From contig NC_034009.1 in the NCBI RefSeq assembly GCF_000346465.2, positions 16,714,078-16,778,077 of the forward strand: a stretch of DNA of 64,000 nt. The letters are read 5' to 3'. The position numbers and the translations under genes were made by a program. The notes beneath the pieces were generated by a model that worked only from the letters and a program-made list of their open reading frames with translations, was not told the origin of the DNA and ran no database searches. The stretch's first letter is position 1. Every line of letters starts with the position of its first letter. Positions 1,449 to 26,520 of this stretch are shown piece by piece. This stretch comes from Prunus persica. Its lineage: Eukaryota; Streptophyta; Magnoliopsida; Rosales; Rosaceae.

Positions 1449-3901
1449 TCAGTTCTTGAGAGGGACAGATTGTTTGCATGTATTTCGGTAGTGGCCCTTC
1501 ACACCACACCTTGAGCATTTGTTTTGCCGGGAGTCCTCTCCTTTGGAAGGTATTCTTTGCATTTTGCGACGGCCCGGCATAACCTTACAAACAGGAGGAA
1601 GGATTTTGACATTGTTCAAATGTTCGAGAATAACCCATGTGCCTTTAGGTGGTACAAGATAAATAGATTCAGCATATGCAGCTGCCCATGTAGCTCGTGT
1701 ATAATAAGAAGAGGCAAAGGAGTAGGGGTTCAATTTCAAGTGCCGACATACCGCAATAGCATGCTTGCACGGGAGTTGCTCCAAGTCAAACTTCCTGCAC
1801 GTACAACTACGGTTTGCCAAGTGCACCAGACCGTTCAAATCACCATCCAGAACATTATACTCGACATCATTGATTTTGACCACATTCATCCTTGACGCAG
1901 CGTCTAACCTCTTCCTTAACTTCTGTTCACCCAAATCAGGGCACAATGTAGAATGACATTTCATTGCTAAATCTCGACGTTGACTAAACCAAGTGAGAAG
2001 TAGATTTGTGATTTCATCGATCAAGTGTAGCACCGGAAGCATCCTTGCAAAACGAAGAACTGAATTAATGGACTCCACATTATTCGTTGTCATCACATTA
2101 TATTGTCGTCCATCACAGTGGGCCCGAGACCACTTCTGGACGCCTGCACGTAGTAGATAAGTTCGCACTCGCTCATTGTTTATCATCGAGAAGTGACGAT
2201 TGAACTCCGCTAGACGATAAGACTTCGCTGCCCTTACAAAATACCCCAATATCGGATCCTGTTGCTTCAAGTGAAATGAGGCTTTCATATTGCCCTTCAA
2301 GTGATAAAAGCAAATACCATGGCTTGCCCCAGGAAAAACTCTACGCAACCCATGTTGTATGCTAACATTGCGATCAGATATGACAACAAGATTCGAGCAA
2401 TCACCAATTGCACAATGTAATTTTCTCAAAAACCACTCCCATGCTGCATCCGTCTCCTAATCTCCAATCCCAAAGGCAACAGGATATATGTTGCGATTTC
2501 CGTCAAATGCGGTCGCAACAAACAAAACACCTTTATACTTGCACTTCAAATGGGTAGCATCAACAGCAATCACGGGCCGCATTGACGACTTAAATCCTCG
2601 TATGCATGCACCAATTGACATAAAAAAAAAATATAACTGGTCGGCTGCATCAGTCTGAATGTATGCCAAAGTTCTCGGATTTATATGCTCCAATTCATAA
2701 CAATAGGAAGGGAGAAGGGAATACAACTCTTCTGCAGACCCTCTCATTGTTTTGAAAGCTAACTCTTGGCTTCTCCAAGCTGTAGAGTAGCTTATGCTGA
2801 CACCAAATTTTTTTTCACATCTGTCTTTATATCAGCTGCAGTGTAAATGCTGCGCGAATCCTGAAATCTCCATTTAACACAGTCAGACACCAATTCGGCC
2901 GTAGCTTGAGGATGGTGATTACTTACAAACCTCAGATCACATTCATGAAGTGGATCGTATTTAACAACCTTAAACTCATGTAATCCAACTTTATATGCCC
3001 GAACTTTCCAAGGGCAAGGCACCTGCCAACAGCGAACACACAACCGACGCTTCCCAGATTGGACTGTTCTGAACCAAAAGTGGCCTCTAATTGCTGCTAA
3101 ACTGATGGTTTTTAAAAGGGCAATCTTATTTGGATAAACTCGGCCAACCTTCAAATTTGCTTCCCAATTTATGCACGAAAGGCCTCCACCATAACCAATA
3201 TATTCCACACTCTCACCATGCTTCGAATCAACCCGAATTGTATGCATTTCACTCGAACTTGATTGCCGGGGAGGTTCAGATTGCACCTGTCTACACTGCA
3301 CAGTGGAGGGTTCCGCATTGCTGTCCTCATGAGGATGCACAATTGGTGCAGAGTACGGTTCCTCTTCATTGCTAGGTTGATACAAATCAGCAACTATGTT
3401 TTCACCGCTTTCAAAATGAACTTCTTGAACCCAATCACTCCAATTAAAACCATTCCCACCATTTTCAGTTTCATTGTCCGAAATTACCACATGTCTTTGT
3501 TCCACAACAAAGGTAGCAGGAGCATTGCTACTCTCAACGTTTACAATGCCATTGCACCCTTCAATACCATGACCTTTGATATTTTTCAAGCTTGCTACTA
3601 AAGGGGTTACTTTAGAGGCCATAACATCTGTGTTGTACTTGAGAAAATATTGAACATCATCATTGTCTTCAACCCTTATGTGCTTACTGACAGATGCGGA
3701 TACAGGAACTGAATACTTCAATGTGACACTATATTTCGTGGGCTCTGCATCCATGATCTTATAAATGCGTTGAACAAGGTCGGAAAACGTTACGTTCCGT
3801 GACACTATTATGCCTTTAGCCTCCCCACCTTCATGACTCTCAATATTATCCTTCTTAACCCAACTTCCATTGTAGCATACCAAAATTCTAACTGTATCCA
3901 T
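1449..3901 (-). pseudogene. MULE (MuDR-type) transposase, inactivated by one frameshift and one stop
   Basis: Read on the minus strand, this is a near full-length MuDR-family transposase. The start chosen is the ATG at 3901, just after a likely splice acceptor. In order it shows an N-terminal PB1-like region, a MuDR DNA-binding region (the HFWFRTVQSGKRR area), the DDE core (AVDATHLK, then ISDRN, then C-x-x-H in GICFYHLKGN, then an E in TTNNVESINS), a SWIM zinc finger (CTCRKFDLEQLPCKHAI) and a C-terminal CCHC knuckle (CSRCGVKGHYRNTC). Two lesions break it. An A-run near 2807-2814 appears one base short, which shifts the frame before SISYSTAW. A TAG at 2457-2459 interrupts the frame just after FGIGD. 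Frame resumes perfectly after each lesion, so decay is recent. It is distinct from the Kaonashi-type transposase at 12.7 kb. No terminal repeats were found. Confidence 0.9.
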
Positions 3902-5253
3902 TTCTGCAAATAACATAAATAATTACTACACCGATTCATAACACTAAAAAAGAAAAAATTGATGAATAAAAACATACACAACAATCATTCCACTACACAT
4001 ATCATCTTCTAAATCCTCAAATCTTCAAACTGAAATTGTAGCTGCTTCAACAAGGAACTTTTATTCCTTTTTGTTTTTTCTCTGATTTTGTACATATCTG
4101 TGGGTTCCAAGTTATTAACAAACTAACATACACATACAATGGCAGAAATATGAACCCTCTAACCCTCCAAGGCTTTTGCACAAATGTAAACACCTTCAAC
4201 AAAAGGATCAGGTTGTGATAGAAAACGTATAATGTAGTACAAGCTCAATTACCAAATTCGAAACCAAAACACACAAACTATACTTCTTACCAAAACAAAC
4301 CTAGAATGCCAATAAATTCCCCACATTAGCATCTAAATTGAGCCTAACACTAGCCGTATTTACAAATTTTTAGGCCAGACAAAGTTAACATATGATTTTT
4401 CTGTGTGCTGTTATTTTCACCATTATCAAACACATTGCACTACATTATACACGCATTCGGTCAAATTTTAAACAAAATTCAAGTTCACCAGACAGATCCC
4501 ACTGCAGATAATATCACAAACTATGAATTTCAACATATCATAACTCCTTCAAACTGAAAATTTAAGCTTTTAGGCCCTCTGTGGTGAAAAGGGGATTTCA
4601 TAATACACATACACTACCAAACCAATATCACAACTCACATCCGTTCACAACGACGCAGGAAGTCGCCACTTTCGCTTCTCTGTGGACTCGCAGCAGTCAC
4701 CTCGATCTGGAGGTCAACAATGGAGGCCGTGCCTTCCGGCTTCGCTGCGCCCAAACTAGGGTCCCAAATTTGAGGACATCTGGGTTATTACGATGGATGG
4801 GTTGCGAACTGGATTGCTCAGTGGCAACATGTCTCACAACCTGGAGTTCCCCCAATTTTTGTCAACCTTCCAACACAAAGGAGAGAGAGTTTTAGGAGTT
4901 CAGACAAGTTCCCTTTCAGAAAAGGGGTGGCAAAGGGTTGCTACATCTGCTTTTATATGGAGGGCAGTTTGGTCATTTCACGTCCACAAGGGATTATATC
5001 GGAACACAATTTGTAACCTGATCATTTCAGAACACCACTTGTGAAAGGTGATTATATCAGCATATTTCCGAATATTTTTCTCCTTAGGGATTTTTTAAAA
5101 ATACCAAAAAATTCTGAATTGTTTTCTATAAAAACCTACCAATAGTTTTCACTTTCCACACCAAATCTTCATACAAATTCATCTCCTTCCAATATTATTC
5201 ACTTTCCACACAAAATTTTCTACACTAAAAATTTCATTTGTGTAAAAATACAA
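3902..5253. other. 5' flank of the MULE transposase
   Basis: A probable splice acceptor lies just upstream of the ATG at 3901 (TTTGCAG on the minus strand). A GC-richer patch at about 4650-4800 looks like the 5' untranslated exon or promoter of the MULE. I see no protein-like frame and no clear element end. Confidence 0.4.
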
Positions 5254-6156
5254 ATGGTCTCTTCCATCGAAGCCGAAAGCATGTGGACAACCATGGAAAA
5301 TATTTTGTTGTGTGAGTGTTGGGTCAAAGTTGGTAATTGCTCGACCACATGAAGTTCTCTCATATGTGGAGAAAAATTCATGGAGAATTTTGTCAAAGAT
5401 CAATCGGGTTCAGCTCGAACGGAAATGGGATTAGTTAGTAGGTGGAAAATTTTGAATAAAGAGTTAGGGAAATGGAGAGATGCGTTGGCAAAAGCAAGGG
5501 ACAACATTCGAAGCAGTCAAAATGTTGCTGACGAGGTAAAATATTTATAAATGCCGTTGTATTCAATTTAATGTCACTTTGTATTTTCTTGCATTTCCAT
5601 TTGTTAAAATATGTTCTTGCATTTCCTTTTTTTTTTTTTAATTTTCTTGCATTTTCAATTATTTTTTTAATAGATTATTCAAGCACAAATGTGGTTTGGT
5701 GCCATTGGCCAAGGCAAAAAAAGTTTCAACAATCACGAATGTTGGGATGTTGTGAAGAATTGTTCTAGATTCAAAATTATTTCCATTGGTTCGACGGTTG
5801 TGTTGAATGAGATGCCACTTCACGATTCACTAGTAACCGATTCGCCATTGGACTCCCCAATCCAATGTGAGCCGAGGTCTATTGGGAGAAAGGCGGCAAA
5901 GGCCAAGAGAGGGAGCACTTCGAACACTGAATGTGCAAACTTTTGGAGCAAATTACTAAGAACGGCACACTGAGAATTGAGAGAGACTTGAAAAGAGAAT
6001 AAGCTGACAAGCCACAATATGAAGCATATGCAATTGAAAGGCAGCAGGATATGAGCCATATGTCTCTTGAAACAAAGTCCTATTGGAAGCTAAAACGAAG
6101 GGATGTTATGAGAAGAAAGTTTTTCCATGACGATGGACCTAGCAACACAGATTAGT
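5254..6156 (+). pseudogene. PIF/Harbinger ORF1 (Myb/SANT-like, NAM-associated C terminus), broken
   Basis: This is the accessory DNA-binding protein that accompanies Harbinger transposases in plants. Exon 1 (5254-5535) contains CECWVKVGNCSTT and SRWKILNKELGKWRDAL, a Myb/SANT-like trihelix region. It ends at GAG|GTAAA. Exon 2 starts at 5674 after TAATAG and reads IIQAQMWFGAIGQGKKSF, followed by a basic GRKAAKAKRG patch and a charged coiled-coil-like C terminus. Lesions seen: an in-frame TGA after STT in exon 1; a one-base frameshift near 5940, where AACTTTTGG should continue as a leucine-glutamate frame; and a TAA near 5992. The transposase lies tail-to-tail with it on the minus strand, the usual layout for this superfamily. 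Confidence 0.85.
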
Positions 6157-6587
6157 TAAATGATCAAAACCATTAGGTTGTATTGAAAGAGTTGTCATAT
6201 GTATTAATTTTTTGTATTATTCCTCTTTTATTTAATAAAGAAACTATTAAATAATATAGCTATTTATTAAAAACATTTCATACATCAAAACAAACCTTAA
6301 TTCATTACAAACCACACACAAAACAAAGCATAATTTAAAACAAAGCATAATTCCAAATAAAGCATTAAACTTGACTTCATCTACCGTGATTGCCCTTTAT
6401 CTCCCATACATGCTCAATTAAGTCAACTTGACGTCTCTCGTGAACATATGAAGATTGCATTTCCTGATAACGGTCATTTCCTAAACCCTAATCAACAGTT
6501 CATACTCCAGTGGTTGTCCATTTGCTCCCACGAGCCGTTCATAAATTCTTGTCAATGCCATGTTTATGGGACAAGGTTCGAACATCT

Positions 6588-7560
6588 CTAGGCATCATAA
6601 TCATACTCATCCTCCACAATCATGTTATGGAGGATGATGCAAGTCATCATAATGCTCAAAAGCACCTCCTCATGAAACATACGAGCATCACTCATAATAA
6701 TTCCCCAACGAGCTTGCAGGATACCAAAACACCTTTCCACATCTTTCCTATAACCCCCTTGAAAGGCAACAAACCTTTTTTCCTTCTCCAATTGGGGATT
6801 TGGAATTGTTTTGACCAATGTCGTCCGCCTCGGATAAATTCTGTCGGCTAGGTAGTACGCACCTGAGTATGCGGTATTATCGATTTGATACGTGATCTTG
6901 GGGGGATGACCTCTCAAGACAACGTTGAATACTGGGGATTGACCCGCACATTAAGATCATTTTGAGATTTGACAACTCTAAAAAAGGCATGCCAAACCCA
7001 AGTATTGAATGATGCAACGGCCTCCAGAATTATACTTTTTTGGCCCTTCATATTCCCATACTCTTTGCCAAGTAGTTAGGCAACTCTTCCACTATCAGTG
7101 CATGCAATCGATGCTTCCAATCATGCCTGGGAAACCTCGAGTCTCCACTTTTTGTAGAAATCTTCGGAGGTCCCTAGGCGTAGGTTTGTGAAGGTACTGC
7201 CTCTCGTAGAGATTTTCTATTGCATCACAGAATCTGACTAAGCACTCTAGGGTAGTTGATTTCCCTATCCTAGCAATCTCATCCACCTGGTCTACAGATG
7301 CCCCATACACAAGTAGCCACAAAGCAGCTATAAATTTTTGCTTTCGGAAAAAGACCCAAAACCCCAAGAGCAACGTACTTCTGAATGAAGTATGTGTTGT
7401 AATTACAAACACCCTGCATGATTTTTTGGAACAAATAAGGCTACATTCTATATCTCCCTCGAAAATAAGAAACATGATATAACGAATTTGGAATAAAGTA
7501 ATCTTCCATGAGATTCTTACCCTAAGAGTGTCTATGTCTGTCCACGTTCGGGACACGATG
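6588..7560 (-). pseudogene. PIF/Harbinger transposase (DDE_4), multiply broken
   Basis: The minus strand encodes a HARBI1-like DDE transposase. Recognisable parts are the helical segment SVDQVDEIARIGKSTTLECL, FLQKVETRGFPGMIGSIDCM (first catalytic Asp), SGAYYLADRIYP (second Asp) and RKDVERCFGILQARWGII (catalytic Glu). It ends in MIVEDEYDYDA. After SIDCMH there are TGA and TAG codons. The homologous middle part (REYGNRKGQKS- and LEAVASFNTWV-like) can be read only by changing frame, so there are frameshifts between about 6930 and 7100. The N-terminal 7400-7560 part is also degraded. It pairs with the ORF1 pseudogene at 5.25-6.16 kb as a two-gene Harbinger element that is no longer autonomous. 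Confidence 0.9.
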
Positions 7561-11789: not shown

Positions 11790-11809
11790 TTTGAATAATA
11801 CAAAATTAG

Positions 11810-12727
11810 TGAAATACCCAATTGTAGACATGAAACTATAAATATACCCTACATGATTTAATACATATAAACACACCCAAAACACACCCAATTGTAGAAA
11901 GCTGTCTATTTTTGTATTTTATTTTCTATGTTAGATTACGTTTTTGACCTTTTGGTTCGAATATTTTGAAACATGCCCAAAACTCGCCAGCTAGGATAGG
12001 AATTTCTTGAAATTTACGTTGGTGACCTCGTAACAGAAACCTGTTTGGCAGCCTCAGCAGATCGAATATTCCAAGCGAGCTTCGTTCACTTCTTCGAACG
12101 AAGGAAGCTTCGTTCATCTCTTTGAACGAAACGAGTTTCGTTCACCTCTTCGAACGAAGCTCAGTATGATGTGGTTCCAGATCTTCTTTTTCGATTCTTC
12201 TGAGCTTAGTATGGCGTAGATTGGAGTTCTATTGCTTCAATTTCTTTTTCTTTCTTGTTTGATTTGGTGATTTTTGGATTGATATGCGCTGCATGAGACT
12301 CGATTGGAGCTTGGTGAGATCTGTGATCTTCGATTTTTGAGGTATTCGATTTTTTCTTGTGAATTCATATTCGTTTTTGGAGGTATTCGATTATATTGTA
12401 GTCTGCTTTTTGGTGATTTGATGCTCGATTAATTAAGTTGCTGATTAGGTTTTCGTTTCTCTTTGTTTATAATTTGGATTGATTTCAGATTCGTTTTGAT
12501 TGTGGATTTGCTCTTGTGTTTTGGTTTGAGCTGTGGTGAACAATTTGTGTTATTCGATTTAATTGAGGTATGCTTTTTCAGTTGAATCTGAGTATATTCG
12601 TGTTTTTTCTGTTTATGCGCTATTGGTTTTTGAGTCGACTATAATTCATTGTTAATGCACTCGGCATCCACTGTTATTACTAGTAGTCATTTTTGTTTTG
12701 TTTGTTGTTTTTTTTGTAGAGATATAT
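11810..12727 (+). promoter_or_regulatory. 5' terminal and leader region of the MULE
   Basis: The left inverted repeat is followed by a T-rich leader. A motif (GAACGAAGC/GAACGAAACG) recurs at about 12075-12160 in both orientations. The sequence TTTTTTTTGTAG ending at 12719 looks like the acceptor of a 5'-UTR intron directly in front of the transposase start codon. No protein-like frame is visible in the leader. Confidence 0.45.
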
Positions 12728-15259
12728 ATGGATGATTCGAGAGTGGCGAAGTGCACCTATGGTGCTGGAACTTTAATGCTTATTTTGTCTTCAACTACTA
12801 CTTTTGATTGGTTGTCCAACGAGTTGTGTAGTAGGTTTAAGCTTAAGTTAGGTCATTTTGAGTTAAGGTACTCTTTTATGGATTGCTCCAATTGTTTGTT
12901 GGAATCGGACGATGATTTGAAAATCATGTTTATGGTATGTGGACTGATGAAGGATCAATTAATTCACATTGCTGTTAGGGATAAGGCTGTAGTGAAGCAT
13001 GTTCAAACTGTTAATACGAACATGATTGCTTCTCCTTTTTTGTTGGAGTCTGCTCCTAACAATTACAGTTTTGCACAAGATGAGGATACATGTAAAGATT
13101 CAAGTCAAACTGGTAGTATTGTTGATTCAAGTGCTGCTTCTTCTTCTTGTTTGAGTATGGATTTTGATGGTATTAGCAGTGAGTTTGGAAATGAATATTT
13201 AGGCAAATATGGTAGTTGTGGAGGGCGTAAATATTTGTCTACTGATTGGGAGGGTTATATTACTCATGAGGGTCAGAAGTTTGAGGGTGGAGTTTGTGAA
13301 TTCCGTGATAAGTTGGCTAAGTACGCGATTGAGAATGGTTTTAAGATGAAGTATTTGAAGAATGAGCCTCGTCGTGTTACTGCTGTGTGTGCTAAGAAGG
13401 AATCAAATGGCTGTGAGTGGAATGTGCATGCTGTTAAGTCCAATGTAAATGGATTTTTCTATATTAAGAATTTAAATAATGTACACAGTTGTAGTGGTTT
13501 GATCCGTGAGAAGAGAAATAAGGCAATGGGGTCTCGTTTGGTGTCTTCAATTGTCAAAGATAAAGTTCGTAGCAATCCTTTGGTAAGGCCTATTGAGCTA
13601 ATTACTGATTTGAAAGAAAATTATGGATTGGATGTCCCTTATCATGTTGCGTGGTATGGGAAGGAGTCGGCTACTAAGGATTTACATGGTGATGAGGAGT
13701 TGTCTTATGCTCACCTGCCTTGGTATGTTGATGTTTTGAAGGCCAGCAATGTCGGGTCTCATTGTGTGCTTGACTGTGGCGAGGATGGTTCTCGTTTCCA
13801 GCGGATCTTTATATGTTATAAGGCCTCCATTGATGGTTTTCGATGGTGTAGGCCTATGCTGTTTATTGATGGTACTTTCGTTACAAACAAGTACAAGGGT
13901 ACTCTTCTAGGAGCTACTGCAAAGAATGGGAATAAAGGTATGTAATGTAAATGATTTAGTTGTTGACTTCCATTGAGTAGTATGAACAGTATAGGTATGC
14001 AAATGTAAATGCTGTAGTTGTTGACTTCCAGTTAGTGGTATGAACAATTGTTATACTGTTTGTTGACTTCCATTGAGTGGTATGAACAGTTTCTATACTG
14101 TTCATACCCTGCATCTGAGTATTTTTATGCATTGTAGTTTTACTCTGCTTCATGTGGTAACACTGTTAGCTCTTGCAATGTTCAAACTAACTAATATATT
14201 TCTCTGTTTTTTGTAGAGGTATTCCCTTTTGCCTTTGCTATTGTATCCGGTGAAACTGCTGACAATTGGAGGTGGTTTCTGCAAAGGATATCTGAAGTTT
14301 TGGTGGATGAAGGTAGGCAACTTACATTCATTTCTGATAGGCATGGTGCTATTATCGATGCTGTTAGGACTGTTTTTCCTGCTTCTGCCCATGGTTTTTG
14401 TCTATATCATTTGAAAGAGAACTTGAAAAAGAAGTATCCGCATTCTGTTGGTTCCTCTTTCAAGGATCATATTTTATGGCTTTTTTGTAAGTTGTTGTAT
14501 GCACCGACTGTTGAGGAATATCAAGATATTTTGAAAAAATTAAGAGATGATGGCGGTTCAAAAATAATTGATAAGTTTTTGGCTAATCTCCCTGTCCAAA
14601 ATTTTGCTAATGCATTTTTTCCGGGAAAGAGGTATGGGGAGGTTAGTAATGCCTTGTCCGAGTCGTTTAATTCATGGGTTAAGGATGTGCGTAGGCTTCC
14701 AATTTATGAGATGATTGACACTATTAGGGTCAAAATGATGGAGATGATTTCTAGGAGGAAGCTTGCATCCGAGAAATGGTGTAGTGTTTTGTGTCGGGTT
14801 ATTGAGGATGAGTTGAAGAATTTAGCTGCAAAGGGTCGTCATTGGAGGATATGTCGCGCGAGTGAATCTATATTTGAAGTTCATGCTGATTTGAGTGTTA
14901 TGGTCAATTTGGACGAGAGGTTTTGCTCCTGTTATCAGTGGCAATTGCTTGGGTTTCCGTGTCAGCATGCGATTCAAGTTATCCAACATTCCGGGTTATG
15001 TTTGTATAACTTTGTTGATGAGTATTACAAGGCAGACTTTTATAGGGCTACTTATGCAACCCCTATATTTCCTATACCTGATATTGAGAAGCCTCCTGCT
15101 GGAGATGTTTTTCTTCTACCTCCGCATACAAGAAAGCCTCCGGGACGACCTCCGACAAAGCGCTTCAAGTCAAGCAGTGAAACTACAAGGCAGTTGAAGT
15201 GCAAGAGATGCGGTTCTTGTGATCGTCATAATAGGAGGACTTGCAAGGCTCCTATTTGA
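12728..15259 (+). CDS. Intact MuDR/MULE transposase, 750 aa, two exons
   Basis: The protein catalyses cut-and-paste transposition of the surrounding element. Exon 1 is 12728-13937 (donor GTATGT) and exon 2 is 14217-15259 (acceptor TTTTTTGTAG). The junction restores the reading GNKEVFPFAFAIV. The ATG at 12728 (MDDSRVAKCTYG) is chosen because it follows a likely acceptor at 12718-12719. Domains: a PB1-like N terminus (about residues 5-80), a MuDR DNA-binding region (about 186-255), and the RNase-H-like DDE core with Asp about 381 (FIDGTFVTNKYKG), Asp 444 (ISDRHG), C-x-x-H (GFCLYHLKEN) and Glu 552 (NALSESFNSW). A SWIM zinc finger (CSCYQWQLLGFPCQHAI, about 640-660) and a C-terminal CCHC knuckle (CKRCGSCDRHNRRTC) follow. 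No stop or frameshift is present, and all catalytic residues are kept, so it could be active. Confidence 0.93.
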
Positions 15260-15859
15260 TGTAAAGGTTTTGGAGTATAAAGACTTGAATGAGAGTAGTT
15301 AGTCTTTAACTAGTTAAAGTGCTATGTGATTGATTAGTGACAATCATAGTTGAAAGGAATAGAAATTGATATGCAAGTTGTTAATACGGTGAAATAGCAG
15401 TCACTGCATATGAATACTGTTTGAATTTTCGGTATTAATACATAATATGTACCATTTTTGGTATTTTGGAAATTTTGGTTTTGAAGTTTGATATGAATTA
15501 AGCATTACTGCTGTTTGAATAATCTATAAATGAAGGAACACTGTTTTAATACCCACTGTTTATGTCATTGTTGAAATTAAAAGATAGTTCTATGACATGG
15601 TATTAACAATTTATTTCTATCAAATAGGATTAACATTGTATTGAGAGTGCGTTGTTATTTGTTGGAGTTCACCTTTTTAGTTGTTTTAGTGTTATGGAGA
15701 CCATTATTTCAGGTTACATACACTGTTAATTCACGTAAATAAACTGATTTTTGAATAAGTACATAACTTGAATTTGAAAATCACTTTACTTCAATGTTCT
15801 AAACCTACACAAATCCTAAGAAACTACAATATAAGCAAGAATTTTTGCAAAATATTTGA
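15260..15859. other. Intergenic spacer between convergent MULE genes
   Basis: AT-rich, with several copies of a short phrase related to GTTAATAC/GTATTAAC (for example near 15379, 15435 and 15600). It separates the 3' ends of the transposase and the first Ulp1-like gene and presumably holds both poly(A) regions. No gene is seen. Confidence 0.5.
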
Positions 15860-18800
15860 TTACAACTTCGTTCCTTTGCATTTCTCTCCTCTTTCTTTGA
15901 TGGAAATCCAACTTCTTTCATTGCTCATAATTTTCATGAGAACTTCTTTTCTCATTTCCCAGACCTTTTCTTTGTTGAAATCTGATTCTATTTGTTGGTC
16001 TTTGGAAAGCTGCTTCATGAAGTGCATGACAAAGACGCCACAATCATTGCTGCATAATAGAGATACGCATGCAGGAGTTAGTTCAGTATTTTTTTCAGTT
16101 GAATAGGATTAAAGTTTCACTGTTATTGCGTAACTTACGAATTGTTTGCTTGTTGGGGGCATTCTCTGTTCTCAGTCAGCTTGAAGTTAGTAGTATCATG
16201 ACGAATCAGATACTTCAATGTCTGAGCATATTCCGGTGTAAGTTTGTTGCTGGCAAGCATTTTTGCTATCATTCTAGCTGAAGCTTCATTAAGCCCTCTC
16301 GGCTTCTTGGCATCAAAATCAGGAATTTGGACGAGTTTTGTTTTCAGTGATGCTGCAGCACATTCCTTAAGAAGACAGAGGAATATATTCGCTGTCTCAA
16401 CCTGCATCATAGTCATAGTCAAGTATGTGCGTAGTTTCCTTTAAATTTAGTGTCCTATGTATTAACAGTGTTAATCACCAGTTTTACTTACCAAAACAAT
16501 TGCCTTCTTGTGATAATATTCGAGAGTTTGTTCTGATGTCCCCCTGAATGAGTTGAAGTGTGTCCATTTTGCTGCACCGGTGTCAAAGACAAGCAGCGTA
16601 TGGTGGTTCTCATCTGTAATTGGTATGAACACTCTATCAACGCTTCCAATATTTTCTAGGAGTGGCATATAGAAAGCATGATATGTCAGCTTGTGTGAAG
16701 CACCTCGCAAAAACATCTGCATAAGTCATGTGTTGGTGATTAGTAACTATGTTGATGATATAATATTGATGTATTATATGTGATCTTACATAGTTATTGG
16801 CGGACAAATATGCATTTTTTTGTTTCTGAGGGTTCTGCTTCGCATCATCATTAAGTGCCTCTCCATAAGCATCGATGATTAGTGCAGAAATTGGATCATC
16901 TCCCATCAGCTTTTCAATGTTATGTTTGTACAATACTGTCCTATTGTGTAGGTAAAAAGCGCCCCTGAACAATAATGTTGTTTAAATAATAATTCAGCAA
17001 ATAATAATGTCATAACAGTTTAATAGCAAGACAGTTCTACGGCATAGTATTAACAGTGTAATTCTATGACAGTTCTACGGCATAGTATTAACAGTGTAAT
17101 TCTACTACAGATTGGCTTACTCATCGGAATCAGATGCAGATATCCAGTAATTTTCCAAATTCTTCTTTGATTTTTCATCCAGCCTGTTGTAGACCTCATA
17201 CATGCGCAACTGAAGGTATGTATCTTTGTCCTTCTTTTTTTTGTTGGGTGCTTCATCTTCGCTTTGGCTTTCTCTTTTTCGGGCTTTCTTATGTGCTTCG
17301 GGGTATGTGTAATCTGGTTTCTTTGCAGGCTTTCTGTCTTTTCTGTCTTTGATGATTTTGATGCCAGAACGTAATTGCCTGGTTCCTACTTCTTTCGCTT
17401 GCAGGAGAACTGACTTTTCAGGAGTTTTTTCATCAGCATTCTCATCTTCATCATTAGGAGTTTCTTGCACCTCCAATTCACTTTCTTCTGCTATTCTCTC
17501 ATCTTTTTTCTCCTTATTAGCTTGTTCTTTCATTGTAATTTCTCCTTGTTCACCTTGTGTGAAATTTTTTCCCATCACATGTTTCAAAGAGGCAATAACA
17601 GTGTCTTTTTCTTTCATGCTCTCAATGCAGGACAACTTTTCCCCTTCAAGTAGTTCATGTTGTTCCTGTAGCTGTCTCTTGTTTGTTTTGAGTGCATGAA
17701 GTTCCCCTTGTAATTTTGCACCTTCTTTTTTCTCTTTCTCAAGCTGCTTTTTCAGTATTTCAATTTCTTTCTCCAACTCTTCTTTTTCTGTCCATATTTG
17801 TTGAATGAATGATTTTTTCTTTATGCAGGATTCTATAGCACTCTGCATCATATCCCTTCGAGTATCTGCCTTTTCAATCCAATAGTCGACTGCTTCTTTT
17901 AGCTGTTGGATTTTCTCATGGGTAGAGACTATTTCATGCTTGTAGTACTCTGGGATTGAACCCACTATGTCCTCAAAAATGGTGTTGAAGTCTTCTTCCT
18001 GGCCGTCAAGGTCTGGATGCTGTTGCTGGACATTAACAGTGTCCCCCTCCGTCATTGAGTCTCTGCTAAGGTCAACTGCTTGTTCTTCAATTTCATCATC
18101 TGCTTCGCATCCCGGTGCTTGTGCTGGTGGTTCTTCAATTTCATCATCTGCTTTGCATCCCAATGACTCTGTATTGTCTTCATTTTGCTCCTGTTGTGGA
18201 GTGTTTGTCTGGGTTGCACTTTGGTCCACATTTTCATGGAAGTTGAAGTTCTGTTTCTGGGTAATAACAGTCTGCTTTTTTCCTTTTTGTGTTTGACTCT
18301 TTAACTGTCACAAATATTAGAAAGGAAAAAAAGATCATTAGCAAATTTATATACATGTATATGTGTGTGTCCACCATCAATTCAGTTTTGAAATATAAAT
18401 GTTGGGTCATTGTAGGTTATCTTACCCAATCTTTAAGTGTGATAACAAAGTCATCATCCTCTTCATTTTCTTCTTGTTCTTCATGGTCTGCGTGATCAGT
18501 CGTTGCTTCTTCTTCTTTTTCATTGTCTGCAGCTTTTATCTGTTGAATTATTGGAGTCAGTAGTAATTATGGTGTACTAACATTATATATGTTTATGGAA
18601 GTAAGAAAAATGCCTTAATGTTTTCATATTTTGCAATATTCAGCTTGATATTGAGCTCCGGAAGGCTCCATTTGACAGCCGCTGGTTTATGATCTTCTCT
18701 TCCAGGAATTGGACTGATCAGGTTAGTTCTTTCACACAGCCAATACTGCAAACATGTTTTTCAATATAAAGTGTTAATGCACGTGAAAACAAATAATATA

Positions 18801-20251
18801 ATAGGATTAACAAATAGATGTAGTTTCTTACCAGGATTAGCACAAGGCAACCACTGACACTTGGTTGATTTGTCTTGTGCTTTTTATTTTTCATGGCTTG
18901 GTCCAGTCCAAAATGCATGTAATCTAAGACTCCTTGTGCCCAGTTGTAGCTGTTCATTGCTTCTAAGGTGTCAATCATAGTCAAAAAGGTCCAAGCCATT
19001 GTCGCCCCCGAGTTGCAAAAGAGATTTGTGATGAGGAGCTCTAGGATTAACAACCTCACAACATCCATTGCATTGTTCTTTCTGTCATCTGCTATTGCTG
19101 TGTTCAGGCACCTATCAACCTCAGTTTTTGTGATTTTTTTTGAATTCTTGAAGTACTTCTTTTCAAAGCCCAAATTTGTTCTTGTGGAAGTTGTTGTGCT
19201 TGGCAACTTGTTTCCTTTGTTAGGCAATCCAAAGATTTCAGACACATCATTGCTTGTAATTTCATACTCGTTGCCTTCACTGAATTTGAATTTTTTGGTT
19301 TCGGGGTTGTAGAACCTGATTAGTCTAATTATTTGATAATTAGACTTCTGGCATTCTACCTTGGTGAGCTGACCTTCCATGTAAGCCTTGATGATGCTCC
19401 AGAATGGCGTTTTTTGTAGGATCTTGAGGACATCCTTTCTTGCTGCAAGCTTGTCTTTTACCGTTTGCAATGTGTTGTCAAATGTGAGCATGTTGCTCTT
19501 GATCTGCACATAATTTGGGTTATTGCGTCTGCTTGGTTTGGCTTTTGCTGTTGTTGGTGGTGTGCCTTGTGTGTTTGTTGATTTTTTTTTGCTCTTTTTC
19601 TGGCTTGGGATACTTTTGTATGCTTTTTTTTTGAATTTCAACCCGGTTACCTTTTTCCATATGATCACCTGCAAAGTGAAACAAATATGTTATTTTAACT
19701 AAACAAAAGAAAGATGAAACATAAGTATTAATACTTCTATGACATGGTATTAACCATTTACTTCTATGCATTTGAACCTCATATGCATTTCTAGTGCATG
19801 TTGCACTAGAAGAGCAAAATGCATAGAAGTCCCAGATTTTGATTAACAAAGGATGCTACATATGTTGGTCTTCAAGTGCACTCAGTGCACTAGAAGAGCA
19901 AGACACATAGCATGCTATATATTTTGGTCTTCTAGTGCACTGCAAGCAGTGCACTAGAAGAGAGAGATGCATAGCAGCCACAGATTTTGATTAACAAAGC
20001 ACTGCACTAGAAGAAAGGATGCTACATATGTTGGTCTTCAAGTGCACTCAGTGCACTAGAAGAGCAAGACACATAGTATTAACAGTTGTGACATAGTATT
20101 AACAGTTCAAGTTCTATGACATAATATTAACAGTTGTGAAACATATACATCGCAGTCAAAACATGCGTTTTTTCAGAACATTTCTATCGGACTTTGAAGT
20201 TAAGAGATTTTTTAATACCTGGGAGTTTGATTGTGATGCTTTTTCAGCCAT
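15860..20251 (-). CDS. Ulp1-like C48 cysteine protease carried by the MULE, copy A (1050 aa)
   Basis: Nine coding exons join in frame: 20251-20219, 19668-18832, 18745-18614, 18539-18426, 18304-17121, 16964-16790, 16716-16492, 16401-16139 and 16049-15860. The start is ATG at 20251 (MAEKASQSNSQ), with an untranslated exon likely upstream (ending 20430). Residues about 12-300 are a basic, plant-mobile-domain-like region (TPFWSIIKAYMEGQLTKVEC, NDVSEIFGLPNKGNKLP). Residues about 370-740 are acidic and coiled-coil. The C terminus is the Ulp1/adenain fold, which removes SUMO-type modifiers in known relatives: His863 (NHHTLLVF), Asn880 (WTHFNSF) where Asp is usual, Gln983-984 and Cys991 (NDCGVFVMHFM). 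One intron has a GC donor at 18613. The ORF is intact, and activity of the H-N-Q-C set is plausible but unproven. Its role in transposition is unknown. Confidence 0.85.
19785..20070. repeat. Cluster of palindromes in the 5' intron of Ulp1-like gene A
   Basis: A perfect 16-bp inverted repeat with a 2-base loop occupies 19928-19961 (arm TCTTCTAGTGCACTGC, loop AA). Similar shorter ones lie near 19790-19812 (TTCTAGTGCA arms) and near 19878-19895 and 20040-20060 (GTGCACT arms). They are linked by repeated phrases (AGAGCAAGACACATAG, GCTACATATGTTGGTCTTC). The cluster sits in the intron 19669-20218 and could form hairpin RNA. Confidence 0.8.
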
Positions 20252-21125
20252 TTCTGAAGCTTCTTCGTTTGATTTGGGATGGTCTTCTGTGCTTTTGCAT
20301 CTTGACTGTTTGTTTCTGTCATTGTTGGCCCTTTCGTTGGTTACCTGTATTAAACGTCGTACTCTTGCATTAGTTAGCAGAATCTTAAGATGAAAGTAGA
20401 AAGTGAGTTTGGGTTTTTGGGATTGTACCTTATGTCGATGTTTATGGTTGAAATTTTCTTCCTTTTTCCCTGGGTTGTCCTTGTGCTCAGTTGCTTTTTT
20501 CCTGGGTTTTGTAGTGTCGATTTTGAAGACTTGTGGCTATGGCAGAATATAACTTCGATTCGCCGGCTTTCTCGTAATGGAGTTTGTCTCCTGTCTGGTG
20601 GTTATGGAGGTTTTCGCCTGCTTTTGGAGTTGGTGTCGCAGAGATTGGGGTTAGAGGTGAGTGGGTTTTCGGCTTTTGGGTGCCTGCGTGTACTGTTGTT
20701 TATCTAGGCTTAGATTTTTTTTGTCTTTCAATGGGCTTAGTTAAATTGGGCTTTATTGGCTTGTTGAGTTTTCTGGGCTTCTTTTTTTATGAGACTTTTT
20801 TAGTTTATTTAGTTTATTTGCTTGATTTGTTTTGGGCTTTATTTCGTTTCTGAACTTGATTTTCTGAAGTTGGGCTGGGCTTTTTGAAAGTCACTGTTAA
20901 TACGCATTTTGAACATTGTTAATGCGCAGTTTGAAATTTAGAAGAAGCTACACAGTAACAATTTTTTACATTTGAATCTCACTACACAGTAACTATTAGA
21001 CATTTGAAAGTTAAGAAGCAGCAAAAGATTTTGTTTAGAAGCTACATATTAACACTTTGACATTTGGAAGTTAGAAGCCGGACATTTACTATTTTATAGT
21101 TCTAAAATTTGTGAAATCCATGCTT
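20252..21125. other. 5' region of gene A and spacer to gene B
   Basis: On the minus strand there is a likely untranslated exon ending at 20430 (donor GTACAATCC) and the 5' part of the next exon (20344-20252). Upstream the sequence is T-rich, with GTTAATAC-like phrases near 20890 and 20920, and holds the presumed promoter of gene A and 3' end of gene B. No Met codon in frame was found upstream of 20251. Confidence 0.5.
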
Positions 21126-24100
21126 TCATCCTTCATTCCCTTTTGTGAAATACCAACTTTTTTCACTTTCCATTGTCTTCAATAAAACTTCTTTTCTCAT
21201 TTCCCACACATGCGCTGTACTCAAGCTTTCTTCAATTTTTTTTCCTTGTGACAACTGCTGGATGTAGTACATGACAAATACTCCACAATCGTTTCTGCAA
21301 ATTCAGACATATGTATATGTAACATTTAGTGAATCATAGTTTAATTTGAATTGGGGGAAGAAAAGTGTTATTGTGACACTTACGACTTTTGGGGTTGTTG
21401 GGCGCATTCCCTGTCCTCCTTAAAGTTGAATTTTGTGGGATCATGTTTCATCAGATATTGTATTGTTTGAGCAATTGCTGGTGTAACTTTCAAGTTCGGA
21501 AGAAGTTTTGCAACCTCGTAGGTGAATTCTTCATTGTAGACGGGCTTCTTGAACTCAAGAAGTGTGAAGCTGTTTTTTTCTAAAATTGATGGAGCACATT
21601 CCTTGACACTATTGAGGAAGACATTTGATGCGTCTGCCTGCATTTTAGGCAAGTATGTTGTTAGCTTCACTGATTAAATGTTTTGTTCATGCATTGTATT
21701 AACAGTTCATATTAGGAGTCTGTCTTACCAAAATTATTGCTTTTTTGTTGTAGTATTCAACGGTTTGCTCAGTTTCCCCCCACAATGAGTTGTAGTGCGT
21801 CCATTGCGATGAATTGGTGTCAAAGACAAGCAGGGTGTGGTGTCCGCCATCCGTTATTGGTATGAACACCTTTGAAGTCTTCCCTATGCATTCAAGGAGT
21901 TTGACAAAATATTCATCGAATGCTCTTGGGTGCATTTTACCTGTGAGATACCTCTGCAAGATTAATAGTTTCGGCATTAGAGAGAATGTGAAAAATATAG
22001 GAAGATGAATAATTTGTGATTTTTACTAGAAGTAACGGGATAGGTATGATCTTTACGTATGCGTAGCACGTGATGTATGCATTCTGTTGTCTTGCAGGAT
22101 CCTTCTTTTCATCATCATGAAGTATCTCGGCATACGCATCTATGATTTGTCCATAAATTTCAGTATCTCTGAATAAGCTTTGTATGTCATCTTTGAACAA
22201 AATGCTTGTCCCTTGCCAAAAAGCAGTGCTGTAACAGTATTTGTAGTTAGAAAAAATGTCAATAAATTGAAAGAACTGTTCAATAGAGTTCCAGTATAGC
22301 GTAATAATACTGCTTGTTTCCTTAAAAAAACCTTTTCCTAATGCATGCCTACCATGTAAAGTTCCAGTATAGGGTAATAACACTGCTTGTATCCTATGAA
22401 ATCCTATATCTAATGCATGCCTACCATTGTAAAGTTCCAGTATAGGGTAATAACACTGCTTGTATCCTATGAAATCCTATAACTAATGCATGTCTAACCA
22501 CTGTAAAGTTCCAATATAGGGTAATAACACTGCCATATTACTCTGAAATCCTATAACTAATGCATGTCTACCCGCTGTAAAGTTCCAGTATAGGGTAATA
22601 ACACTGCCATATTACTCTGAAATCCTATAACTAATGCATGTCTACCCCCTGTAAAGTTCCAGTATAGGGTAATAACACTGCTATATTACTCTGAAATCCT
22701 ATAACTAATGCATGTCTAGCCCCTGTAAAGTTCCAGTATAGGGTAATAACACAATGAAATCCTATTTTCTAATGCATGTTCAATAATAGCATCTTGCATT
22801 GAAAATGAATGAAACACATTGCCTTACCCATCAATTGAACTTTTCCAGTAATTTCTCAGCTTTTCTTGTGAGAGTTCATCCAGCATGTTGTAGACCTGAT
22901 ATGTATTCCATTGCAGGAATGAACCTTTGGCCCTCTTCTTTGATTTGGCTGGTTCTTGAGGTTGTTTTGCAAGCTTTCTCTTTTGTGCTCTTGTCTCTGC
23001 TTCAGGGAATGAGGAATCTGGTTTTCTTGATTTTATCTTTTCTGCTTCACCTTCTTTCTCTTCTACTTTATCTTCTTCACTCTGCAGTTCTTGCGCTAAT
23101 TTTTGATCCCTCAATAGGGCAATAACAGCTTCCTTTTCATTAATAATTTCCAAGTAGGAAATCTTCTCCGCAAGAAGTTGATCATTTTCTAGCTGCAGCT
23201 TTGTCATGTAGGATTTTTCCTCATACATATCAAGTTGTATGGCATTCTTGTGATATGCTGCTTCCTTAACCATCTTCTGCAGTTGCTGCTGATGCTTCCT
23301 TAATTCTTCTTTTTCATTGTACAGCATCTGAATCAATTTATTCTTTTTTATGCAGGATGCTATTGCATCATGGATCTTTTGATGCTCTCCTTTCTTTGTC
23401 CAATATTCAGCAGCATTGTTGATCGCAATCATGTATTCTTTTGTAAGCTGTATTTCATCCTCCTTGTATTCCGGGACAGATCCAACATTTTCCTCAAATA
23501 ACGTTGAATTCCGGTATTGCTGGTGGTGTTGCTGGTGGCCTTCTTGTAGCTGATGGTGTTGCTGGACTTGATGTTCAGCAGCATCATCATGCTCTTCATT
23601 CATTTCAGCATCCTCCTCTTCATTTTCTTCTTCATCAGCATCACCATGCTCTTCATTCACCTCTTCAGCAGCATCATCATGCTCCTCATTAACTTCTTCA
23701 GCAGCAGCATCCTCCTCTTCATTCTCTTCTTCAGAATCATCATCCGGCTCTTGAGCTTTAGTGCTTTTTATCTGTTTGTTGAGTAGAGTTAGCATTAAGA
23801 GTGACATGGTATTCATAGTTTACTTCTATGACTGGAACTTGACAGTGGTAGAAAAGCACAAGAAATAGGATTTCAAAGAGAACTAGTAGTGTTATTACCC
23901 TATATTGGAACTTTGCAGTGGCAGACATGCGTTAGAAATAGGATTTCCTAGGGAACAATCAGTATTATTACCATATACTGGAACTTGACAGTGGTATAAA
24001 AGCACAAGAAATAGGATGTCTATGACATGGTATTAAGAATGTATGTCTATGACATGGTATTAACAGTACCTTTATCTGGTTGTTCTCTAGATGATGAAGC

Positions 24101-25071
24101 TTCGCGCTGAGTTCTTGAAGACTCCATTTGACAGCTGCTGGTGTCATTTGTTCTCTTCCAGGAATTGGAGTGAGCAGGTTAGATCTTTGACACAGCCAAT
24201 ACTGCACAATATTTTATTGCAATATCATGTGTCAATTCATATCATTTAAAGTAATGCTACGAATTTGCAGTTTGGAGATTGGTGTTCTTACCGGTATTAG
24301 GATTAGGCAGCCACTCACGCTTGGCTGCTTCTTTTTGTCTTTCTTGTTCTTCTTTGCTTGTTCTAATCCAAAATACATGTAGTCCAAAACTCCTCGAGCC
24401 CAATTATATTTCCCCATCTCTTCTAAGGTGTCTATTGTGGTTGTATATGTCCAAGCAAGTGTACAACCAGAGTTGCAGAAGAGATTGGTCATGAAGAGTT
24501 GTAGGATTATCAATCTTGTTGTATCCATAGCCCCCTCTTCTGTTTCATCTTCAAGTGCTAAGTTCAAGCACTTATCAATTGAAGTCTTTGTTATCTTCTT
24601 ATAACCCGAGAAGTACTTCTTTACAAAATGGAGATTTGGCCTTGTTGAGGTTGTTGTGCTTGGTAGCTTCTTGCCTCTGTTTGGCAAGCCAAAAATTTCA
24701 GACACATCTTGGCTTTTCATCTCACTGTCACCATCACCAAACCTGAACTTCTTTGTCTTCGTGTCATAAACTTGTATGAGTCTCACAATGTCATAGTTAG
24801 ACTTCATGCACTCTACCTTCGTTAACCTTCTCTGGATATATGCTTCTATCAATGTCCAAAAAGGTGTCTTTGATAGCAGTGTTAAGACATCGTGCCGTTG
24901 TTCAAGTCTTTGTCTGATGTTGTCAATTGTTGTTGCAAAAGAGAGCATGTTGCTCTTGATCTGGACATAATTTGGGTCATCCCATCTGCTTGGCTTCTTG
25001 TTTGTTTTTGTTATGGCTGATGACTGTTGTCCTTTTGGTTTGGAGGTTCTTCTGGTTTGTATTTTCTTCAT
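21126..25071 (-). CDS. Ulp1-like C48 cysteine protease carried by the MULE, copy B (891 aa)
   Basis: Seven coding exons join in frame: 25071-24292, 24201-24070, 23771-22828, 22228-22057, 21953-21729, 21637-21384 and 21294-21126. The ATG at 25071 (MKKIQTRRTSKPKGQQSS) follows an in-frame TAA, so it is the first usable start. An untranslated exon ending at 26015 lies across a 927-nt intron. The layout matches copy A: a mobile-domain-like part (DVSEIFGLPNRGKKLPST), then a strongly acidic E/D/H-rich and glutamine-rich coiled coil, then the Ulp1 core with His714 (GHHTLLVF), Asn731 (WTHYNSL) and Cys839 (NDCGVFVMYYIQQ). The exon corresponding to A exons 4 and 5 is single here. The 75-codon exon is the same length in both copies, but the sequences differ widely, so the duplication is old and both copies stayed open. 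Confidence 0.85.
22285..22790 (+). repeat. Minisatellite, about 74-bp unit, seven copies
   Basis: Units start with GTTCCAGTATAGGGTAATAA at about 22289, 22361, 22434, 22508, 22582, 22656 and 22730, with a period of 72-74 bp. Each unit also carries AATCCTATAACTAATGCATG. The array fills the gene B intron 22229-22827. The same unit occurs inverted in two other introns of the gene. Confidence 0.92.
23817..24069 (-). repeat. Inverted copies of the 74-bp minisatellite, short array
   Basis: Reverse-oriented units (GTTATTACCCTATATTGGAA near 23890, then TATTACCATATACTGGAACT near 23966) alternate as two subtypes. They lie in the gene B intron 23772-24069, in opposite orientation to the array at 22.3-22.8 kb. 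Confidence 0.85.
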
Positions 25072-25087
25072 CTTTTAATTTGTATAC

Positions 25088-25990
25088 CTGCATTAGAAAT
25101 AGGAACATGACAGTAAAGTATCGATGTTAATACCCTATACTGGAACTTGACAGTGGTAGAAATGCACAAGAAATAGGATTTCAAAGAGAACTAGTAGTGT
25201 TATTACCCTATATTGGAACTTTGCAGTGGCAGACATGCGTTAGAAATAGGATTTTCTAGGGAACAATCAGTATTATTACCATATACTGGAACTTGACAGT
25301 GGTAGAAATGCACAAGAAATAGGATTTCAAAGAGAACTAGTAGTGTTATTACCCTATATTGGAACTTTATTTACAGTGGCAATATGCGTTAGAAATAGGA
25401 TTTCCTAGGGAACAATCAGTATTATTACCATATACTGGAACTTGACAGTGGTAGAAAAGCACAAGAAATAAGATTTCAAAGAGAACTAGTAGTGTTATTA
25501 CCCTATATTGGAACTTTATTTACAGTGGCAGACATGCGTTAGAAATAGGATTTCAGTGTACAATCAGTATTATTACAGTGGTAGAAAAGCACAAGAAATA
25601 GGATTTCAAAGAGAACTAGTAGTGTTATTACCCTATATTGGAACTTTATTTATAGTGGCAGACATGCGTTAGAAATAGGATTTCAGTGTACAATCAGTAT
25701 TATTACCATATACTGGAAATTTACAGTGTTAGGCAAGCATTTCAAAGGGGATTTCATAGGAAACGAGTAGCGTTATTACCCTATACTGGAACTTTATTTA
25801 CAGTGGCAGACATGCGTTAGAAATAGGATTTCATAGTGTACAATCAGGGTTATCGACCCTAGATTAGTGACTAGAATAATGCTCCTATGCATTTATTCCA
25901 GTAGTGAATCCTATATAGTTTCAAGATTTTGTCCTTCATTCGAATTTAAAATACTGTTATTACCCTAGACTGGATCTTTATAGCAAATAA
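25088..25990 (-). repeat. Inverted 74-bp minisatellite, long higher-order array
   Basis: Two subtypes alternate (one with CCCTATATTGGAACTTT, one with CCATATACTGGAACTTGACA), making a higher-order unit of about 145-150 bp. Copies of the first subtype start near 25199, 25349, 25496, 25625 and 25773. Spacing becomes irregular toward the right. The array fills the 5'-UTR intron of gene B (25088-26014). Confidence 0.88.
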
Positions 25991-26511
25991 TCAATATTAC
26001 AGTAAATGTCTTACCTTTGAAGCGTTTTCTTGTCGAAATTGTTCTCTGAAATTTTGTCTTGGTTCTGAAGGTGGAGGTCAGTGTCTGGTGTTCGTTTTGA
26101 AAGTAGATGAAGCTTCGTGGTGATTATGGAGTCTCGGTTTTGCAGACGATTTGATGAAGACGAAGAGTGAAGAGACGTTTTGCAGAGATAGCTTAAATGA
26201 AGGCGCGCGTGCTGGCAGTTAAGTTACTGTTTGTTTACTTTTACGGTTTACTTTTTTTTTTTGGGCCGAAAGTTATGGAATACGAGATGGTACAATGTTT
26301 GGGCTTGTTTATAAATTTGGGCTGGGTTTGTTTTGGGTGTTTTTTGAGTTTTTTTCTGTTGGGCTTGATAGTGGCAGTGCTGTAATTTATTGGAACTTCA
26401 ACACTAATTTGTTATTTAATAAATGGATTTTGGGAGTGTTTATGAAGTGTTTTCCATGTGGGGTTTTTTTATAATTTCAGCTCCTATTTTAGGTATATTA
26501 GTGAAGATCCC
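25991..26511. promoter_or_regulatory. Promoter side of gene B and right MULE terminus
   Basis: On the minus strand an untranslated exon ends CTTCAAAG|GTAAG at 26015. Upstream (26.1-26.4 kb) is T-rich and contains no protein-like frame. The right inverted repeat runs from about 26425 to 26511 and ends next to the TTTGAATAA target duplication. Confidence 0.5.
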
Positions 26512-26520
26512 TTTGAATAA

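Follow-up and report, generated by a model that had tools for sequence, protein, structure and literature searches.

A complete, autonomous-looking MULE in the peach (Prunus persica) genome carries, besides its transposase, two ancient paralogous genes, A and B, whose predicted products join a plant mobile domain (PMD) resembling DUF1985 to a linker and an Ulp1-type protease domain. Judged from its sequence, at least one of these products is probably a VANC-like factor that would unlock only the family bearing a particular short motif. The motif fills the non-coding DNA of the element, which together with the accessory genes suggests a self-made escape from plant silencing. All coordinates are positions within the window, the whole 64,000-nucleotide stretch of DNA that was analysed.

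A complete MULE with an unbroken transposase

The element spans positions 11799–26511 (14,713 bp), bounds that are set by the presence of the 9-bp target-site duplication TTTGAATAA at both 11790–11798 and 26512–26520. The two copies agree at 9/9 positions, in keeping with the perfect duplication and the 14.7-kb MULE reported in a preliminary description of this DNA. Among nine other elements, seven have 9/9 duplications, one has 8/9 and one has an N in its flank. The related long inverted ends that had also been reported show real similarity but are degenerate, with 54/73 alignment columns identical. Inverted similarity was compared with 500 simulated pairs at end lengths of 100, 150 and 200; the ends of the window element scored 60–62 against a simulated maximum of 57–59 (0/500 pairs reached the observed score). 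For the ends of a non-autonomous copy, L038, the observed score was reached by 1/500 simulated pairs, and the ends of copy C8a were not above chance (120/500). A MULE-type transposase and a 9-bp duplication, two of the criteria for a MULE, are both present in the window element.

The transposase gene lies on the plus strand. Exon 1 (12728–13938) encodes PB1, DBD_Tnp_Mut and the start of the MULE domain, and exon 2 (14218–15259, stop included) encodes the rest of the MULE domain, SWIM and a CCHC-like knuckle. Joined, they yield the unbroken 750-residue protein described earlier, with no stop. The Pfam matches are PB1, DBD_Tnp_Mut, MULE (PF10551, E = 1.6e-23) and SWIM. Of the SWIM and CCHC fingers previously noted, the former is therefore recovered, whereas the latter (CX2CX5HX4C) is not among the Pfam matches and is recognised by eye only.

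Two PMD–Ulp1 genes in tandem

Genes A and B run antisense to the transposase, on the minus strand. Conceptual splicing, with stop positions computed from exon lengths, gives 1050 codons for A and 891 for B with no internal stop, as had been predicted. The earlier label 'Ulp1-like' covers half of each gene: both predicted proteins begin with a plant mobile domain that resembles DUF1985. In gene A, a short exon 1 (20219–20251; start MAEKASQ) precedes exon 2 (18832–19668), which encodes the PMD, and exon 3 (18614–18745), which encodes the end of the PMD and is followed by a conserved GC donor. Exons 4–5 (18426–18539 and 17121–18304; 17121–18539 overall) encode an acidic linker, and exons 6–9 (16790–16964, 16492–16716, 16139–16401 and 15860–16049; 15860–16964 overall) encode Peptidase_C48. 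In gene B, the PMD is encoded by exon 1 (24292–25071) and its end by exon 2 (24070–24201), which has a GT donor; exon 3 (22828–23771) encodes acidic repeats and exons 4–7 (22057–22228, 21729–21953, 21384–21637 and 21126–21294; 21126–22228 overall) encode Peptidase_C48. A weak structural model of an apricot homologue suggests a long helix in the region of gene B exon 3, and we assume, by analogy, that exons 4–5 of gene A contain a helical stretch.

The model of gene A requires GC, not GT, as the splice donor at the end of exon 3. This donor is GC in 6/6 two-gene copies, whereas the corresponding donor in B is GT in 6/7 copies, the seventh being unaligned; the GC donor of A is therefore inherited and not a fresh mutation.

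In Pfam, the PMD is matched with E = 2.5e-14 in A and 2e-12 in B, and Peptidase_C48 with E of about 3e-8 in both. DUF1985 overlaps the PMD stretch, below its curated cut-off of 35.1 bits, in exon 2 of A (E = 6.5e-7, 29.9 bits) and exon 1 of B (E = 9e-4, 19.6 bits), and it is matched at E up to 0.01 in 10/21 PMD proteins scanned. DUF287 was not found in A or B in Pfam up to E 10. A fold match to VANC21 (9lnj) is not relied on, as the PMD-exon model has a mean pLDDT of 52.9 and no Foldseek E was below 0.9.

The catalytic set of a C48 SUMO protease is His, Asp, Gln and Cys. The window A and B share identical His, Asn and Cys, the Asn standing where Ulp1 has Asp, and in the putative protease Gln lies 7 and 8 residues before the Cys. 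A profile of relatives matches SENP1/2 and aligns the Gln with SENP1 with a one-residue insertion; the B protease domain, when used as a single-protein query against PDB sequences, had no match. In a genome-wide Peptidase_C48 profile search, none of the 150 places listed falls inside the window element, because 150 of 973 candidates were scored.

A short motif fills the non-coding DNA

The core TAWKAACA occurs at 35 sites in the window element, compared with a mean of 4.6 and a maximum of 13 in 300 order-1 simulations. Of these sites, 31 lie in 6.6 kb of non-coding DNA and four in 8.1 kb of coding DNA, and the flanks hold 0.24/kb. When sites with like flanks were merged, 20/24 contexts were non-coding (p = 1e-4).

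Each of the three genes has the motif in its introns, and the spacers hold it too; every gene zone has a main variant of its own. The transposase intron carries four sites of TATGAACA in repeats (13981–14106), and the introns and spacers around gene A carry ten non-coding sites of TATTAACA (15379–21054). On the B side, TAATAACA accounts for six sites in an intron array of 73–74-bp units (22287–22752, plus strand), one of two sites in intron repeats (23831–24065) and five of six sites in a non-coding array upstream of the coding start (25125–25962, minus strand), the remaining site in each of the last two being TATTAACA. Four other copies show the same zoning as the window element. One 73–74-bp unit makes up much of the B-side count (10 sites, one context); once like flanks are merged, TATTAACA contexts in the B zone are about as many as TAATAACA contexts, and the A zone of three copies holds one TAATAACA site. 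A and B could be two specialised anti-silencing proteases, each reading its own variant (A zone, TATTAACA; B zone, chiefly TAATAACA; transposase intron, TATGAACA) and desumoylating tethered silencing complexes, and the genes of the element would then be unlocked separately. We consider such a division of labour unlikely.

The motif extends beyond the window. Its density in the diverged copies C8a, C8b and C3 is 2.6–3.9/kb in non-coding DNA versus 0.36–0.49/kb in coding DNA, and the five non-autonomous copies examined have 6–14 sites each. The motif-bearing repeats of one copy, L028, match the full element in short stretches only. Genome-wide, GTAWTAACASTG occurs 581 times versus 150 for the reversed pattern, and 83 of the first 100 matches listed (of the 581) are clustered. 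Six large motif clusters on C1 had not previously been tied to the family, and all four of those examined carry the family right end. In the sister family, TAWKAACA is replaced by another motif, GAAACTGCA: the non-coding DNA of that family holds 0–0.6/kb of the former and 5–8/kb of the latter. The VANC21 motif YAGTATTAY, with six occurrences in the window element, seven in C6b and one or two in C8a, C8b and C3, was rejected on these counts as the motif of the family.

The motif might instead be bound by the transposase or some other mobility protein, with A and B serving transposition itself, and TnpA of En/Spm offers a precedent for mobility-protein binding of element motifs. Among the copies that carry the motif are mobile non-autonomous ones whose duplications agree at 8 or 9 of 9 positions, and motif density tracks the family ends: on C1, 12/17 end matches (a set that includes the window's own and two that belong to a single element) have a full motif within 3 kb, against a random mean of 0.16. 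The window sites, however, are not subterminal: 873 bp separate the left end from the first site, and 556 bp the last site from the right end. Their spread over the introns of all three genes and the spacers, zone by zone, also speaks against this explanation, which we regard as rather unlikely.

Divergence and selection across the family

The peach genome holds five further two-gene copies. Identity between A and B is 49%, with dS of about 1.2 and dN/dS of 0.34 (0.26–0.42). The two genes form separate groups with 100/100 support, which agrees with the earlier proposal that the gene was duplicated, diverged strongly and was kept in both copies; each group includes other Prunus species, and A and B apparently separated before the sampled Prunus species arose. 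Between the window element and the diverged two-gene copies, dN/dS is 0.53–0.61 for A and 0.39–0.43 for B, and in neither gene does the bootstrap upper bound reach 1. Against C6b, the youngest two-gene relative, dN/dS is near 1 in all three genes, with few changes. The selection on both genes that the preliminary description proposed is therefore supported across the history of the family, but none is demonstrable since the last jump. Separately, the C5 locus is a possible case of domestication.

A neutral origin of the arrays through tandem duplication, with the accessory genes as passengers, is very unlikely. The single unit behind much of the B-side count, the dN/dS near 1 against C6b and the stops in A of 5/5 and in B of 4/5 other two-gene copies would fit that explanation. 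Set against them are the recurrence of the core in 24 flank contexts, most of them non-coding, and in the L028 repeats, the family-wide dN/dS below 1 for A and B, and the open homologues present in other Prunus species.

A probable local anti-silencing function for A and/or B

A non-coding motif that is kept in diverged and non-autonomous copies and swapped in a sister family is the published signature of a VANC target and, with the DUF1985-like domain, suggests the VANC-like reading. A and/or B would bind GTAWKAACASTG, the longer form of the motif, in introns and spacers and would lift silencing, presumably with loss of methylation, from their own family and its non-autonomous relatives only. 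The protease domain, once tethered, may strip SUMO from local silencing proteins.

The role in host-SUMO interference suggested earlier does not fare as well. On that account, A and B would be SUMO proteases with different substrates, disturbing host SUMO signalling in general, and the arrays would be incidental. The PMD/DUF1985-like domain and the dense non-coding motif, which it leaves unexplained, argue instead for local, sequence-specific anti-silencing. It gives no account of the motif swap in the sister family or of the motif in copies that lack the genes. In gene B, moreover, dN/dS is higher in the protease part than in the other two (0.58 versus 0.50 and 0.33), and with Asn at the Asp position A and B may or may not be active proteases. 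We hold general interference to be quite unlikely.

Relation to known systems

How a transposon can lift silencing in a sequence-specific way has, according to the accessible literature, been worked out for Arabidopsis VANDALs. The peach element brings together, in a crop tree, what a test of such a system needs: two candidate factors that are paralogues, a motif of defined sequence, naturally occurring non-autonomous copies in which the motif is present but the genes are absent, and, to control for specificity, a related family that has another motif. The host proteins with a plant mobile domain, MAIN/MAIL1, are needed to silence transposons, and the element connects this domain to a candidate system for countering silencing.

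In the accessible portions of PMC5735166 and PMC10398659, VANDAL21/Hiun and VANDAL6 of Arabidopsis are likewise MULEs whose inverted ends are degenerate and which have accessory genes, an accessory protein with a DUF1985-related domain, and a short tandem-repeat motif in introns and spacers that is replaced by another in a related family. Within its accessible text, Hosaka 2017 (PMC5735166) marks DUF1985 and DUF287 in VANC proteins and reports that the short motif bound by VANC21 lies in tandem repeats of non-coding parts and differs from family to family. By contrast, A and B have no detected DUF287 and have an added C-terminal Ulp1-type protease domain; they are recognisable paralogues of each other, a kinship that VANB and VANC may share; and the peach motif is TAWKAACA, not YAGTATTAY or AGTTGTCC/AC, its factors being predicted from sequence.

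The PMD-carrying MULE groups of PMC6446971, as far as its accessible text goes, share a PMD gene that is often antisense, 9-bp duplications and a SWIM transposase, whereas the words protease, peptidase, Ulp and C48 are absent from that text, and no mention of paired PMD genes was found in it. MAIN/MAIL1 share the plant mobile domain but, in the accessible parts of PMC7156037 and PMC8616336, are host proteins needed for transposon silencing, with a standalone PMD and no protease; the latter, a review, raises the possibility that transposons make their own PMD proteins against silencing. No literature pairing 'plant mobile domain' with 'Ulp1' was found, although overlap with Sasaki 2022 and Fu 2013 is possible.

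The Kaonashi/KIU elements are described in the accessible parts of PMC13317346, PMC6117577 and PMC2528002 as MULEs without clear TIRs and with an Ulp1-type domain opposite the transposase. That domain is found here in the same orientation, in the minus-strand genes A and B (Peptidase_C48, 3e-8). The accessible text of the review PMC13317346 counts three genes in Kaonashi/KIU elements, with the Ulp1 gene among them and regarded as a form of VANC, and gives the Ulp1 domain on such MULEs no known role. The two predicted PMD–Ulp1 genes in tandem, with a family-wide GC donor in A, are a departure from the one-gene arrangement of these elements.

Structure of the element and its copies in the peach genome

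The 14,713-bp MULE at 11799–26511 is bounded by the perfect 9-bp duplications noted in the preliminary description, and re-splicing reproduced exactly the gene sizes given there. A domain search of the 750-aa transposase identified PB1, MuDR DNA-binding, MULE and SWIM domains. On the opposite strand lie, in tandem, two Ulp1-like genes, each comprising a plant mobile domain (PMD), a linker and a Peptidase_C48 domain. Conceptual splicing yields nine coding exons (1,050 codons) for gene A and seven (891 codons) for gene B. Exon 3 of A ends in a GC donor in all six A copies; at the corresponding position, six of seven B copies have GT and the other is unaligned. By eye, the A exon-3 junction is read across in the gene models of almond (P0014) and P. 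campanulata (P0008), an apricot model (P0010) has exon 3 shortened, and a second almond model (P0013) skips exon 3. The window also holds a second Mutator-like transposase stretch close to its left edge (1470–2489, minus strand); it is approximately 32% identical and contains one TAG.

Protein and end searches for further copies carrying both genes recovered five: C6b (C6:24.08 Mb), which is 98–99% identical to the window element, C8a (C8:9.65 Mb), C8b (C8:9.68 Mb), C3 (C3:11.15 Mb) and C6c (C6:19.12 Mb). Among the six two-gene copies, all three frames are stop-free in the window copy only. Counted over alignable codons, with frameshifts left out, C6b, C8a, C8b, C3 and C6c contain 2, 6, 6, 5 and 8 in-frame stops in A and 0, 7, 14, 4 and 4 in B, respectively. 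Of the four copies tested for duplications (C6b, C8a, C8b and C3), the last three are flanked by duplications matching at 9/9 positions; in C6b (L010), the flank by the element's left end reads N, hiding any duplication. B-type sequence is present at five more loci, with no separate A-type match beside it among the matches listed, and a decayed B-like piece lies at C1:15.25 Mb. At C1:14.59 Mb (L033, 236–1198), a 964-bp stretch shares 99.5% of its bases with the window's left end; the 9.9 kb read there contains no more element matches, and the stretch is a truncated or rearranged young copy. Peptidase_C48 matches occur at no fewer than 150 genomic places, in most cases with a 142–145-aa open frame and one TAA within the match, and these are probably another abundant Ulp1-carrying repeat family.

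Selection on A and B

A and B are 49% identical over 885 aligned residues, and the dN/dS between them is 0.34 (0.26–0.42; dS 1.19, dN 0.40); their PMD parts are 61% identical, with a dN/dS of 0.21. The proposal that both protease genes have been kept by selection is borne out against diverged copies. Between the window and the four diverged two-gene copies, dN/dS is 0.35–0.45 for the transposase, 0.53–0.61 for A and 0.39–0.43 for B, and against five B-only loci it is 0.33–0.54 for B; bootstrap upper bounds are below 1 throughout (highest 0.88, for A), and the decay of dead copies shifts such ratios toward 1. Against the youngest copy, C6b, ratios are near 1 in all three genes (13 to 21 changes each, wide intervals). 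With copies pooled, the PMD, linker and protease give 0.61, 0.62 and 0.46 in A and 0.50, 0.33 and 0.58 in B.

In a tree of 31 PMD rows, A and B form two groups with 100/100 support, the former including P. campanulata and almond and the latter apricot and almond, with P. speciosa within the B branch; linkage of A and B in one element is seen in the peach copies. A third lineage (C5 and almond P0012) adjoins B with modest support (86/81). Three protein searches, which reach only relatives with short words in common, returned open homologues from several Prunus species and, beyond Prunus, just more distant proteins from Rosa, Fragaria, Rhododendron and Vaccinium.

A zoned motif in the non-coding DNA

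Word counts in the non-coding DNA of the element brought out words that are strongly enriched there. Of the 35 sites of the core TAWKAACA, non-coding sequence (6.6 kb) holds 31 and coding sequence (8.1 kb) the other 4; the density is 2.38/kb in the element versus 0.24/kb in the 49 kb of flanks. In 300 simulations each, the mean count was 4.6 (maximum 13) at order 1 and 6.6 (maximum 16) at order 3. Merging like-flanked sites left 24 contexts, 20 of them non-coding. The transposase intron carries the variant TATGAACA, the zone around A carries TATTAACA, and the B zone mostly TAATAACA, being mixed when counted by context. The core is kept in the diverged copies (2.6–3.9/kb non-coding versus 0.36–0.49/kb coding), and each of the five non-autonomous copies read (2.1–2.4 kb) has between 6 and 14 sites. 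Three 2.37-kb copies that are mutually close relatives (L026, L038 and L039) share with the full element its ends, the B arrays and intron sequence of A and of the transposase, and match no exon. At about 160–1300 of each, approximately 1.1 kb is unmatched to the full element and is possibly captured host sequence.

Genome-wide, GTAWTAACASTG occurs 581 times versus 150 for the reversed pattern. Among the first 100 of these places, all on C1, 83 are in clusters, there are 57 neighbours within 1 kb (random maximum 3), and 13 clusters hold at least three sites. Two of the 13 are inside the window element, and at least five, among the matches listed, have a family end no more than 3 kb away. The right end is present in all four clusters fetched from the other six (scores 105–125; the highest of 60 null pieces scores 74). 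For L040 (duplication 9/9, run of T) and L042 (8/9), a left end was assigned by position and duplication, because their scores (68 and 73) are below the null maximum of 79; L041 and L043 contain no left end within the stretch fetched.

A related MULE family (L029, L030 and L036), whose transposase is 47% identical to the window's, carries one PMD–Ulp1 gene per locus within the 9.9 kb read, and many of its transposase matches are stop-free inside. Its non-coding parts contain the window motif at 0–0.6/kb and GAAACTGCA, a word picked on these mutually similar loci themselves, at 5.3–7.9/kb (1.3–2.0/kb in coding parts); GAAACTGCA is absent from the window element. The non-coding motif (AGAAACTGCA, AATGCAGTTT) of this family, relatives included, is its own. 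Five other loci were scanned over their whole length, and two of them, L031 (3.1/kb) and L034 (2.3/kb), also contain GAAACTGCA. L024, L032 and L035 have each motif at no more than 0.7/kb, and arrays of these two motifs are therefore not universal among relatives. L024 (C5:1.389 Mb) contains a PMD gene at 4536–6699, without motif arrays (0.42/kb) and with no Ulp1 match in the stretch read. Peach P0024 (named NST1-like) and almond P0012 (isoform names) look like this lineage, possibly a domesticated gene from this transposon group.

Proposed function and relation to known systems

Transposon silencing in Arabidopsis requires SUMO ligases. Most likely, A and/or B would bind the motif arrays through their N-terminal part and act locally there, the Ulp1 part presumably stripping SUMO from silencing proteins. 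The element may thereby work like the VANC anti-silencing systems of Arabidopsis VANDAL transposons. As far as literature searches show, the tandem, anciently diverged PMD–Ulp1 paralogues and their link to a zoned motif are new, with possible overlap with Sasaki 2022, which reportedly deals with such systems in eudicots. Earlier papers describe MULEs with Ulp1 genes (PMC2528002), PMD genes opposite MULE transposases (PMC6446971) and VANC forms bearing Ulp1 (PMC13317346). The DUF1985 match in A and B is below threshold; because of this, because DUF287, a domain of Arabidopsis VANCs, was not found among their domain matches, and because the function is a prediction, we do not class the element as a VANC member. 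Like VANC21 and VANC6, for which Hosaka 2017 (PMC5735166) describes motifs exchanged between related families, the window family and the L029/L030/L036 family differ in their motif.
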